Below are positions 16,029-45,709 of a stretch of DNA of 64,000 bases, one piece after another. The stretch is from Flavobacterium johnsoniae (lineage in GTDB: Bacteria > Bacteroidota > Bacteroidia > Flavobacteriales > Flavobacteriaceae), in NCBI RefSeq assembly GCF_001879205.1, contig NZ_MLFK01000005.1:558001-622000 (forward strand), given 5' to 3'. How positions within the stretch are numbered: position 1 is the stretch's first letter; each line of letters begins with the position of its first letter. The notes under the pieces were generated by a model. That model worked only from the letters and a program-made list of their open reading frames with translations, ran no database searches and was not told the DNA's origin. A program made the position numbers and the translations under genes.

Positions 16029-16385
16029 AGTTTTTTTGTTTCAAGTTTCAAGTTTCAGGTTTCAGGTTTCTTCCGCATTTTATGTCATTTCGATCCCGAG
16101 ACTTCGGGAGAGAAATCTCCGCAAGTAACTCCGCAACGAAAGTCTAATCTTTGTAGAGCTACTTGCGGAGATTTGCTACGCCAGTTCGCTGTCGCTCGAG
16201 TCTCGTTCCTCGAAATGACAAACAGTACTTGTAATCATTACTTAAAATTAAAACTTCGCGTCTCTGCGCCTTCGCGACATTCAAAAAAACTCTTAGCGAA
16301 TCTCTGCGAAAAACCTCCGCGAATCTCTGTGAAATAACCCTTTATTGCCCTATCTTGCAACCTTTAAAAAAACAACAAAACAATT
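16029..16385. repeat. compound palindromic repeat block
   Basis: This 357-bp gap contains no gene but at least four repeat motifs in series. First come tandem TTTCAAGTTTCAGGTTTC phrases (about 16039-16071). Next is a GTCATTTCGATCCCGA-type element (about 16083-16220) that begins with that phrase and ends CGAAATGAC, with an internal stem of GAGAAATCTCCGCAAGTA against TACTTGCGGAGATTT. Last is a cluster of TCTCTGCGCCTTCGCG and GCGAATCTCTG phrases (16259-16338). The same motifs occur separately elsewhere in the window. Confidence 0.8.
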
Positions 16386-17973: not shown

Positions 17974-18270
17974 GCAAAATATTGAGAATTAGGTTTTTGG
18001 TGTTTTAAAAATAAGAATATTTAAAGATTAAAACATAAAATAATTTGAAAAATTTATGAATTGCTAAGCTTTGGAGGATTTTACTCCCGCAATTCCGATA
18101 GGTATCGGAGCAGATGCGTAAAGTTTTTCCGCATTTTTTGTCATTTCGATCCCGAGACTTCGGGATCGAAATGACAAACTAGACTTTTAAGAAATAAGTA
18201 ATATGAATTGCCTCCTGCTTTAGCTGGAGGTTTTTTTATGTTTGAAAGGGAAAAAGGCTTTAGCCAAAAT
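17974..18270. repeat. intergenic block with a perfect 16-bp-stem hairpin
   Basis: No gene is seen here. At 18140-18175, GTCATTTCGATCCCGA, loop GACT and its exact complement form a perfect 36-nt palindrome. Its flanks (TTCCGCATTTT before, AAAC..AGACTT after) match those of the larger element at 16070-16230, as though this copy had lost the interior. At 18211-18237 CCTCCTGCTTTAGCTGGAGG followed by seven T forms a second hairpin, a possible terminator, with a related GGCTTTAGCC phrase at about 18256. Confidence 0.8.
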
Positions 18271-29835: not shown

Positions 29836-30003
29836 TTTCAGGTTTCAGGTTTCAGGTTTCAAGTTTCACGTTGAACGAAATGCTTGTCAAGCTATGCGAA
29901 GTCGAAGCCCGCGCAAAGCACTTCGACTTCGCTCAGTGTGACAGCGGATTTAAGTCTCGATAAAACCTGAAACCTGAAACTTGAAACCTGAAACTTGAAA
30001 CAA
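29836..30003. repeat. nested TTTCAGGTTTC and GCGAAGTCGAAG palindromes
   Basis: The outer arms are tandem TTTCAGG/TTTCAAG heptamers (29836-29869), mirrored by CCTGAAA/CTTGAAA heptamers (29965-30002). Inside lies a different element with perfect 12-bp arms GCGAAGTCGAAG (29896-29907) and CTTCGACTTCGC (29921-29932), followed by CAGTGTGACAG. The gap separates convergent pckA and the phytase gene. The inner phrase also occurs inside a coding sequence at about 37617-37634. Confidence 0.85.
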
Positions 30004-37047: not shown

Positions 37048-37181
37048 GCCACTAATTACACGAATTTTCGCTAATTTCTTTTTTTATTTTTTGCCACAGA
37101 TTAAAAAGATTTACACAGATTGAATCATTTTTAATCCTTTAATCTGTGGCAAAAAACAAGTTTAATTCGTGAAATTAGTGG
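37048..37181. repeat. nested inverted repeats: CACGAATT outside, GCCACAGATT inside
   Basis: The outer arms are GCCACTAATTACACGAATT (37048-37066) and AATTCGTGAAATTAGTGGC (37163-37181). The inner arms are TTGCCACAGATTAAAA (37091-37106) and AATCTGTGGCAA (37141-37152). The inner pair is a separate family that occurs alone at about 58949-59008. Confidence 0.85.
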
Positions 37182-37189
37182 CGACATCT

Positions 37190-38008
37190 TTAAATCTTAT
37201 ATAAAATCGGTTTTGAGGGACTTGCATCATTTTCAAACGAAGCAATTTGAAGATTTAGTATATAATTTCCATCTTCAATTTCGTTTGAGACATAAATCAT
37301 TTCGGTAATTGTTGCGTTTAATCTTGCTTCGGAATTTAGATTAACAGTGTCTTTTACATTCCAAAACGCTTTGTGCGCCAGTAATTTGCCTTCATCATGT
37401 TCTTTATCAACGCTTGGTAAATCGATCAGTAAATGCTGGATTTCGCTTTCGCGGATGAAAATCGCAGCATCTTCAGATAAATATGGCGGATTGGTATTCG
37501 AATATTTTCGAGATTTTTTATCTTTTTGATTTGGAAGTGTTCGAATTACTAAAGCTTCTTTTGTCACGCTGAGCGATCCCGAGGCTTCGGGAGAAGCGCT
37601 TTCACCACCTGTCATGCTGAGCGAAGTCGAAGCACTCAACGCTTTTTCAAGCAGTTCTTTTGTAATCACAAAATCATCTCCCATTTTTTCAGGCTGAACC
37701 GTTATCAATTTTGCAAAAAAGAAAAACTGTTTAAGTGATTGATTTATGCTGTAAAAATCATTAGTAATATGCCCCAGACATTCTGTGTGCGTTCCATGTC
37801 CATGCGGATTGAAGAAAATATTATTAAAATTCGTAGATGATTTTCCTTCCGAAACTTTTCCTATCCAATCACCAAAAACTACTGGTTCAATAACAGGTTT
37901 TTCGATGTACCATGCAATTGGATTTTCGTCTGTATTGGTTAAAGGAATCGAGATATCGATGGGTTTTGATAAGTCAATTTGATATTTGTAGTTGAGAATT
38001 GCTAGCAT
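37190..38008 (-). CDS. cyclase (kynurenine formamidase-like) family protein with in-frame repeat insertion
   Basis: A 272-residue protein of the metal-dependent cyclase/formamidase family. PHGHGTHTECLGHI is the zinc signature HxGTHxD-like (with Glu in place of Asp), and LLIDLPSVDKEHDEGKLLAHKAFW holds the C-terminal active-site region. Between VITKELLEKAL and VIRTLPNQ lies a low-complexity Ser/Ala/Glu segment (SASTSLSMTGGESASPEASG and a few more residues). It is encoded by about 75 bp (37563-37637) that match intergenic repeat phrases. The insertion keeps the frame (25 codons). Family members normally pass directly between these parts. Activity may be retained if the insert forms a surface loop. 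Confidence 0.85.
   Translation of the reverse strand: MLAILNYKYQIDLSKPIDISIPLTNTDENPIAWYIEKPVIEPVVFGDWIGKVSEGKSSTNFNNIFFNPHGHGTHTECLGHITNDFYSINQSLKQFFFFAKLITVQPEKMGDDFVITKELLEKALSASTSLSMTGGESASPEASGSLSVTKEALVIRTLPNQKDKKSRKYSNTNPPYLSEDAAIFIRESEIQHLLIDLPSVDKEHDEGKLLAHKAFWNVKDTVNLNSEARLNATITEMIYVSNEIEDGNYILNLQIASFENDASPSKPILYKI
37563..37637. repeat. in-frame palindromic repeat inside the cyclase-family gene
   Basis: Two related halves, GTCACGCTGAGCGATCCCGA with GCTTCGGGAGAAGCGC, and GTCATGCTGAGCGAAGTCGA with AGCAC, are joined by a short spacer. The phrase CTGAGCGAAGTCGAAG occurs reversed at about 29920-29936 in an intergenic repeat, and the CCCGAG..CTTCGGGA hairpin occurs at about 16095 and 18151. 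Confidence 0.8.
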
Positions 38009-38094: not shown

Positions 38095-39228
38095 TTATTC
38101 TTCCAAATTTAGATAAAACAGATCACTTGCAATTCCATCTGTTAAAAATTTTCCTTTTGGAGTTGGTTTTAGAATGTTGTTTTCAATCGAAAGCAAATCG
38201 TCGTTTAAAAATTTTTGAGATTGTTTTTTCAGATAATTCAAATATTCCAAACCAAATTCATTTTCAATTCTGTCTAAAGAAACGCCCCAAATCGTTCGCA
38301 ATCCAGTCATAATATATTCATTATAACGGTCAGAAATAGTCAGGATTTCAGTTTCTATAGGAAGTTCGTTGTTCTGAATCGATTTTAAGTACAACGAATT
38401 ATTCGCAATATTCCAGCCTCGTTTTTCGCCGTCGTAACTATGCGCCGAAGGACCAATTCCGATATATTTTTTACCTAACCAGTAAGCCGAATTGTTTTTG
38501 GAGAAATAGTTTTCTTTTCCAAAATTGGATAGTTCGTAATGGATAAAGCCGTTTTTTTGAAGCGTGTCGACTAAAATCATGAAATGGCTTGACGCTGCTT
38601 CGTCTTGTGGTTCAGCAATTTTTCCTGTTTGAATTAATTTGCTCAAAGCCGTTCTCGGTTCAACCGTCAAAGCATAACTTGAAATATGCGGAATGCCAAA
38701 ACTCAAAGCTGTTTCGATATTCTGTTTCCACATTTCATCACTCATTCCCGGGATTCCGTAAATCAAATCCAACGAAATATTGTCAAAATACTTCGTCGCT
38801 TCTTGTAAACATTTTATGGCTTCCGCCGAATTATGAGCGCGATTCATCATTTTCAAATCTTCTTCATAAAAAGACTGAATCCCGATACTTAAGCGGTTAA
38901 TCGGACTTTTGGATAATTCCCAAATTCGCTCGGCAGACAAATCATCTGGATTAGCTTCCAATGTAATCTCCGGATTTTCTACAACTTTATAGTTTTTATA
39001 AACTTCTGAAATTAAAAAATTGATTTCTTCATTTGATAAAACAGAAGGAGTTCCGCCACCAAAATAGATGGTTTCGATTTCGTTGTCACTTTCAATTTTA
39101 CGCATCGCAATTTCTTTGGCCAAAGCCAAAACCATCTCGTCTTTCTTTTTCATCGAAGTTGAAAAATGAAAATCACAATAATGGCAAGCCTGCTTGCAGA
39201 ATGGTATGTGAATGTAGATGCCGCTCAT
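38095..39228 (-). CDS. hemW: radical SAM heme chaperone HemW (coproporphyrinogen oxidase-like)
   Basis: A 377-residue protein with the radical SAM cluster motif C11-x3-C15-x2-C18 (CKQACHYCDFHF) at the N-terminus, then the SAM-binding GGGTPS and EANPDD. It lacks the N-terminal extension of true HemN, which favours the HemW-type heme chaperone, as is usual for the short form in Bacteroidota. The C-terminal winged-helix-like part is present (LRTIWGVSLDRIENEFG). The gene lies downstream of ruvC on the same strand, separated by a CAGTCTCAG/CTGTGACTG repeat, so co-transcription is uncertain. Confidence 0.92.
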   Translation of the reverse strand: MSGIYIHIPFCKQACHYCDFHFSTSMKKKDEMVLALAKEIAMRKIESDNEIETIYFGGGTPSVLSNEEINFLISEVYKNYKVVENPEITLEANPDDLSAERIWELSKSPINRLSIGIQSFYEEDLKMMNRAHNSAEAIKCLQEATKYFDNISLDLIYGIPGMSDEMWKQNIETALSFGIPHISSYALTVEPRTALSKLIQTGKIAEPQDEAASSHFMILVDTLQKNGFIHYELSNFGKENYFSKNNSAYWLGKKYIGIGPSAHSYDGEKRGWNIANNSLYLKSIQNNELPIETEILTISDRYNEYIMTGLRTIWGVSLDRIENEFGLEYLNYLKKQSQKFLNDDLLSIENNILKPTPKGKFLTDGIASDLFYLNLEE

Positions 39229-45411: not shown

Positions 45412-45540
45412 AAATTCTGTAATTTGTGCAAAGATAGTTTTTTCCTGCTAATAAATCTTAAGTTCAATGTTCTTAGATTGATAGCTTTTAAATTTAAGAT
45501 AATTTGAAGCATCACAATTGGCTTTTTTTCAGGCATGGTT

Positions 45541-45610
45541 TCCCGCTTTTCGTTTCAATCTTTTATGGCGAACCCCGCCATAAAAGGATTTTCACTTTAA
45601 TCGGGGCTAG
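45541..45610 (-). ncRNA. candidate structured RNA or repeat, Flavo-1-like
   Basis: On the minus strand a long hairpin CTTTTATGGCG, a 5-nt loop and CGCCATAAAAG (plus-strand 45560-45586, perfect 11-bp stem) sits between AGCCCCGATTAAAGTGAAAA and ATTGAAACGAAAAGCGGGA, and CCCCG can pair with CGGGA. This layout resembles an interspersed Bacteroidota structured element (possibly Rfam Flavo-1, from memory). The rest of the 298-bp gap (45412-45709) holds no gene that I can see. Confidence 0.5.
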
Positions 45611-45709
45611 AAAATCAAACAATAGGTTTCTTTTTTAGCATTTAGCTATTCACAAAGTTGCTCAAAGAAAACATTTGCAAAAAAGAAAAGCCTGCAACGA
45701 TGAAACAAT

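Follow-up and report, generated by a model that had tools for sequence, protein, structure and literature searches.

The cyclase / kynurenine formamidase-like gene (PF04199) at 37190..38008 (-) of the Flavobacterium johnsoniae DNA analysed here (64,000 nucleotides in all, hereafter the window) raises the question of how codons that read like an intergenic palindromic repeat come to lie inside a conserved enzyme gene, and what becomes of them there. A first-pass annotation of the window had taken about 75 bp of this gene for one repeat inserted in frame. Repeat DNA is confirmed at this place, but as two repeats (37563-37598 and 37611-37634) and not as one element. Both are REP-type palindromic repeats in frame, and we think it likely that their loop goes on gaining and shedding such elements, probably since a loop predicted to be unstructured tolerates the codons that they bring.

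Two repeat units in the cyclase gene and their copies in the genome

The cyclase open reading frame is open over 272 aa, so that the reading frame is kept as had been annotated, and it scores 63.7 bits against Pfam family PF04199 (cut-off 23.1). The alignment profile of the gene matches the solved kynurenine formamidases 4co9 and 4cz1, neither of which was found with the single cyclase sequence as query, and the best Foldseek match of the predicted fold is 4co9 (E 1e-12). Both repeat units sit in the segment bounded by VITKE and EALVIRTLPN; the named F. johnsoniae protein P0118 has ISTSLNVTSLDRASTSLSVT in this loop. In the structure prediction, residues 131-147 between helix 117-131 and strand 152-157 have a pLDDT below 50, and the repeat-coded residues fall into this predicted low-confidence loop. 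Residues H69, T73, H74, E76, and H80, which we take to be the metal binders, are invariant among 39 aligned homologues, with filled and empty loops alike. Given the open frame and these invariant motif residues, the repeat-coded residues are likely part of the mature enzyme. Because the loop is predicted to be unstructured and the motif residues are invariant with and without repeats, it probably tolerates filler, and the repeat-coded peptide is probably neutral filler.

The plain REP unit, GTCATGCTGAGCGAAGTCGAAGCA at 37611..37634 (+), contains the exact core of the repeat, has pairing arms (TGCT/AGCA), and is read from the opposite strand as ..STSLSMT... The long-tip REP unit, GTCACGCTGAGCGATCCCGAGGCTTCGGGAGAAGCG at 37563..37598 (+), likewise has pairing arms (CGCT/AGCG), is read from the opposite strand as ..SPEASGSLSVT.., and carries TCCCGAGGCTTCGGGA in place of the tip AGTC; its longer hairpin tip is made by the inner palindrome CCCGAGGCTTCGGGA at 37578..37592 (+). 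The unit could be aligned with two other genomic long-tip copies. Both units lie on the same strand, head-to-tail and in frame, and both begin with an exact GTCAYGCTGAGC (at 37563 and 37611), though this 12-mer alone at up to 2 mismatches has 4 window matches against 2.69 expected, which is within chance.

Longer phrases do stand out in the window. CTGAGCGAAGTCGAAG is exact at 37617-37632 (+) and again at 29921-29936 (-), where the first-pass annotation had correctly noticed it in reverse, and at up to 3 mismatches it has 3 window matches against 0.23 expected. The second of these exact sites belongs to an inverted copy pair at 29886-29907 (+) and 29921-29942 (-), inside no ORF of at least 100 aa. 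CCCGAGGCTTCGGGA has 4 window matches against 0.04 expected, one of them the identical palindrome on the other strand. The annotation had also likened a phrase of the insert to sites at 16095 and 18151; one-mismatch relatives of CCCGAGGCTTCGGGA do lie there, but they are part of a different repeat, GTCATTTCGATCCCGAGACTTCGGGA... This second repeat type occupies 16084-16119 and 18140-18175, with one copy a near-perfect palindrome and a tip related to that of the long-tip REP.

The window has several other features. Short tandem-like runs of CAGGTTTCAAGTTTCA lie beside palindromic repeats at 16040-16071 and around 29840-29990. Directly downstream of the cyclase gene, at 37048-37182, a large nested inverted repeat is seen by eye, with GCCACAGATTAAA ... 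TTTAATCTGTGGC inside GCCACTAATTACACGAATT ... AATTCGTGAAATTAGTGGC. Rfam at its gathering threshold gives three matches in the window, namely two tRNAs and a Flavo-1 RNA (RF01705) at 45535-45612 (-) with 74.5 bits, and none over the repeat.

The annotation's idea withstood a search for further copies of the DNA phrase: the 22-nt core GTCAYGCTGAGCGAAGTCGAAG occurs at up to 3 mismatches in 62 places of the 5.49-Mb genome (30 forward, 32 reverse; none for the reversed control). The long-tip form has 6 genomic places, the cyclase unit included, again with no match for the control. An ORF scan of the DNA around these 62 core and 6 long-tip copies places 65 of the 68 inside no ORF of at least 100 aa, the exceptions being the two cyclase units and one copy in an SDR gene (L030). 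Apart from the cyclase units, the repeat is thus nearly confined to DNA outside genes.

More than dispersal marks this repeat as REP-like. It is short, palindromic, mainly extragenic, and present in many similar copies, and its copies form inverted, BIME-like pairs: an opposite-strand copy lies within 100 bp of 33 of the 62 cores, a same-strand core within 100 bp of none. Coding pairs are direct and genomic pairs inverted. The arms covary: of the 61 own-genome copies that lie elsewhere than in the cyclase gene, 50 pair at positions 5-24 and 54 at positions 6-23, where shuffles average 32.1 and 26.3. The tag of the GTAG / CGTC super-family is lacking; the unit starts with GTCA, and the preceding base, judged by eye, is other than C in most of the contexts inspected. 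Residence in frame in a conserved gene with relatives lacking the repeat, as expected of protein-coding palindromic repeats, is found for the cyclase gene, for the SDR gene, and for hemW of relatives.

The loop codons of many related species keep the spelling of the repeat. We compared 91 species: the own genome, 10 more, and the 80 named cyclase loci that ranked best among 381, a choice biased in favour of loops resembling that of the query. At up to 1 mismatch, 55 of the 91 loops contain the 14-nt centre of the repeat, and none of these 91 ORFs contains it elsewhere; the remaining loops have a long tip (3), 2 to 4 mismatches (13), or more than 4 (20). STSL occurs 51 times in loops from 44 species and is written with TCG (47/51), ACT (51/51), TCG (50/51), and CTC (50/51), whereas in the rest of the ORFs TCG makes up 19% of Ser, ACT 13% of Thr, and CTC 1.9% of Leu codons. 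Pairwise synonymous codon difference is 0.056 in the STSL codons against 0.322 in the flanks, a level reached by only 1 of 196 flank windows. The arms of coding units are paired at positions 6-23 in 55 and at positions 7-22 in 54 of 57 units (shuffle means 44.1 and 41.8), counts that are inflated by relatedness. Positions 5-24 are paired in 53 of 57 units against 50.3 in shuffles, which is weakly beyond expectation; when each distinct unit is counted once, the observed value is reached in 294 of 2000 shuffles. Codon choice and paired arms together show that the repeat-coded segments are DNA elements and not look-alike Ser-rich peptides.

Filled and empty loops in Flavobacterium

The cyclase gene has a match in 182 of 199 Flavobacterium genomes, and the loops of 90 genomes were set beside repeat counts; 30 first loci were the best of the matches listed, and 60 further genomes were hand-picked among them. 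Of 151 rows, 3 duplicated the flanks of another one and were removed, and 148 cyclase rows, chosen and not random, entered the tree. Repeat-derived codons are present in 88 of these, 53 loops seem to be empty, and 7 are left unassigned. The 88 filled rows divide into 72 of the own type, 11 of the ISTALDVT type, 4 with sense-strand motifs, and 1 of another kind. Five rows of the whole set (L093, L200, L245, L252, and L125) were reassigned by hand after inspection of their DNA. Cyclase homologues from other genera of the family, where 45 genomes besides the own one matched and 29 loci were fetched, are filled in 0 of 29 rows as read by eye. The proposed insertion therefore also stands against distant homologues, none of which shares the Ser/Ala-rich segment.

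Different repeats fill the same loop in different clades. The ISTALDVT / LSTALEVT loops are read from a repeat with the core TCGAGCGCAGTCGAGA. A search of 24 genomes at up to 1 mismatch found this core in 18, G029 having 66 copies and G007 having 23, with no match for the control. Dense BIME-like clusters of this repeat on both strands are seen at G129:C32:222529-224518 and G029:C1:254105-255957. On the strand opposite to the own repeat, the loop FVISTKEKS of L210 comes from an exact GTCATTTCGACGAAGGAGAAATCACA, of which its genome (G177) holds 21 near copies, 7 of them exact and one of these the loop itself (control 0). The L214 loop has a variant of GTCATTTCGACGAAGGAGAAATCACA, with 3 near copies in its genome (G141), the L215 loop has a further sense-strand motif whose core has 6 near copies in G071, and the L241 loop has another sense-strand motif, different from that of L215. 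Yet another motif underlies the loop RASLGMT of L207. Filled loops of the ISTSLNVT kind have the same length as empty loops, which points to replacements rather than pure insertions.

An abundant repeat does not by itself go with a filled loop: the cyclase loop is empty in the repeat-rich genome G083 (87 copies) and in G129 (36 copies of the other core, in the TCGAGCGCAGTCGAGA-type comparison). Setting loop type beside the current repeat variant of each genome (GAAG and GGAG counts) revealed no clear rule by eye.

The adjoining gene is affected as well. This is hemW at 38095..39228 (-) (TIGR00539, 279 bits against a cut-off of 205.4). Of 82 species compared, 33 have a repeat-like hemW loop between KEIxxRK and ETIYFGGGTPS, as classed by author-defined patterns that leave 3 seemingly decayed repeats (L113, L120, and L137) among the 42 "other/empty" rows. 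The 33 repeat-like loops are PFDSAQ-like (11), LLDSARSD-like (14), long-tip (3), or contain the short inner palindrome only (5, NDPEFSG). In our own sequence the hemW loop is IESDNE (GAAAGTGAC...) at 39079..39096 (-), as counted from the ORF, and reads RKIESDNEIE; it is one of 7 rows with GAAAGTGA, and F. hungaricum (L075) has a similar loop. Judging from the filled L086 beside L088, this loop may be the scar of an excised REP.

The SDR repeat has the opposite orientation to the cyclase one and is read as VILSEVE. The 31 SDR rows, judged by reading and composed of the own one and 30 loci from 34 matching genomes hand-picked in the repeat-richest clade, comprise 7 filled, 22 empty, and 2 decayed loops, and filling is a clean gain of 7 codons. 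The hemW, SDR, and cyclase repeats are read in different frames. The 168 loci that we fetched contain 70 cores. The cyclase gene accounts for 43 of them, hemW for 8, and the SDR gene for 5, and the other 14 do not lie well within a long ORF; as the sample is centred on two of these genes, the numbers give no rate.

Probable turnover of the loop repeats and competing explanations

That relatives carry other repeats or none at the same spot makes it likely that repeats keep entering, changing, and leaving these proteins. We consider it on balance probable that at least four repeat types entered the cyclase loop independently and on both strands, that repeats also fill the hemW and SDR loops, that hairpins reshape the repeats through arm copying, excision scars, and tandem growth to seven units, that species swap them, and that REPs in this way are a mobile source of in-frame codons. 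Copies would reach the loop by rare insertion or by copying from elsewhere in the genome, and selection on the enzyme would let only stop-free, in-frame products survive. The hairpin would then drive change at replication, with template switching equalising the arms, deletions between short direct repeats, and tandem slippage, and short-tract recombination between species would both spread and remove filled alleles. Several observations count against this reading: coding pairs are direct although genomic ones are inverted, repeat-rich genomes can have an empty loop, some filled loops are as long as empty ones, RNA folds of the units do not surpass those of shuffles, and no mobilising enzyme could be linked to the repeats.

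A gene tree built without the loop has at least 31 changes between filled and empty states, and these mix gain, loss, and exchange because a tree of one gene is prone to recombination. Four filled/empty sister pairs have both supports at 95 or more: L094/L136, L111/L137, L239/L249, and L234/L252 (with L252 labelled by hand). In the first of these pairs, the sequences are identical over the downstream stretch shown and 93.5% identical over 336 columns upstream, and some 30 bp adjoining the repeat are strongly divergent. This difference looks like a short recombination tract or allele replacement rather than a fresh insertion. Similarly, L125 of the F. johnsoniae clade has a loop resembling the ISTALDVT/LKLGxPKEA loops of another clade, which suggests exchange between clades.

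Changes within the repeat DNA are also visible. F. hungaricum (L075), the tree sister of our own sequence (L031), shares the start of the long-tip unit and has undergone an in-frame deletion of 30 nt between two direct repeats of GAAGC. In Flavobacterium sp. UGB4466 (L115), positions 617-816 of the locus hold 7.4 tandem copies of a 27-bp, 9-codon unit of the NASTSLNVT type; its sister L099 has two units in the loop.

Among the rival explanations, a single ancestral gain in the F. johnsoniae clade fares best. Vertical descent, decay, hairpin rearrangement, and recombination between species would then account for all later differences, with no re-entry within the clade, and we regard this as possible, if tentatively so. 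Throughout this clade, as far as it was read, the own repeat type keeps to one strand and one frame, and the DNA of ISTSLNVT loops is near-identical in many species. The altered bases adjoining the repeat in L094/L136 and the seemingly imported loop of L125 fit this account too. Position 5 of the 57 coding units is C (48) or T (9) and never G, which is present in at least 37 of the 61 own-genome copies outside the cyclase gene, so that the coding copies are no random sample of the repeats in the genome. The missing G favours shared ancestry in the F. johnsoniae clade or else selection at the protein level. However, one gain leaves the opposite-strand and unrelated repeats of other clades unexplained, the long-tip forms match dispersed copies of the own genome, and the tree changes named above speak against it, though their number is inflated by threshold labels and recombination.

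Insertion of the repeats at a preferred target by a RAYT (REP-associated tyrosine transposase) appears improbable. PF01797 does have matches in 34 of 60 genomes searched, but none of 30 PF01797 loci has any of the three repeat cores within about 1.5 kb, in a comparison with one locus per genome, a few of them shortened by contig ends, and in a family of which not every member is a RAYT. Moreover, the only PF01797 stretch of our own genome is broken by two stops. This Y1 transposase stretch (L147 / L167, G000:C9:124625-124939) has both stops in frame and no tested REP core nearby.

We find it improbable, too, that an mRNA hairpin was selected as a regulatory element for stability or translation with the codons as its by-product. 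The arms of the coding units do stay paired well above the shuffle means given above, but template switching between arms would yield paired arms without selection, and the hairpin is absent from many close relatives. RNA folds of the repeat units are no better than those of dinucleotide shuffles (z about 0 to -1), for which reason we build no claim on RNA stability. Finally, it is scarcely credible that a Ser/Thr-rich linker arose at the protein level and came to look like the repeat through chance or convergence: the loops ISALLNEKT and ISTLINGKT have no clear repeat and do resemble ISTSLNVT as peptides, but chance resemblance is rejected by TCG and CTC codons fixed to the repeat DNA, paired arms and long-tip palindromes, the lack of matches at up to 1 mismatch elsewhere in the 91 ORFs, and the empty homologues of other genera.

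Recurrent entry and loss of repeats, the reading that we prefer, has consequences beyond this locus. Dozens of related bacteria, many of which are named strains, present filled, empty, decayed, and expanded alleles of one loop, and two further genes do likewise, so that it becomes possible to date, and to test by experiment, how coding repeats enter, are tolerated, and are lost. Ser/Ala-rich "insertions" of flavobacterial proteins can be repeat DNA, and the cyclase loop may offer a natural example of proteins being altered by template switching and by short-tract recombination.

Comparison with known systems

In-frame palindromes are known chiefly from Rickettsia, with scattered cases elsewhere. 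The Rickettsia palindromic elements (RPEs) belong to obligate intracellular bacteria, and Flavobacterium is largely free-living; RPE-1 is around 100 to 150 bp long, compared to about 24 to 36 bp for the Flavobacterium units. The annotation had proposed that RPEs behave like the cyclase insert, and this is apt as a way of working. RPEs are described as in-frame residents of ORFs whose protein products are likely functional (PMC3733652).

The same source deals with GTAG- and CGTC-tagged REPs, which are mostly intergenic, with some wholly in ORFs where dimers or groups encode 20 to 30 residues, and notes that recB of two Xanthomonas species has REPs in nearly the same position (PMC3733652); its main text has no word beginning with Flavobacter. 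The enterobacterial RU-1, RU-2, and RU-3 are small, MITE-like mobile repeats of 103 to 168 bp with reading frames that are now part of annotated proteins, and the abstract of that study makes no mention of recurrent filling of one loop (PMC2759123). Template switching between the arms of inverted repeats, which equalises arms and makes clustered codon changes, is described in yeast genes (PMC8604942), whereas in the Flavobacterium loop it is suggested by sequence patterns. The RepRanger table includes two Flavobacterium genomes (PMC12306157). Our search of CC0, CC BY, and CC BY-SA literature by titles and abstract openings found no report of in-frame repeats in Flavobacterium, nor did the exact phrase have a match.

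In being short palindromic repeats that are mostly intergenic and in some cases lie in ORFs, the Flavobacterium repeats are like the GTAG/CGTC REPs as these are presented in PMC3733652. Unlike those, they start with GTCA and fill one loop with several repeat types from both strands, next to empty sister alleles and with a neighbouring gene affected likewise. Protein-coding REPs and Rickettsia RPEs are thus already known, and what is new here is the probable recurrent turnover of repeats at fixed loops.
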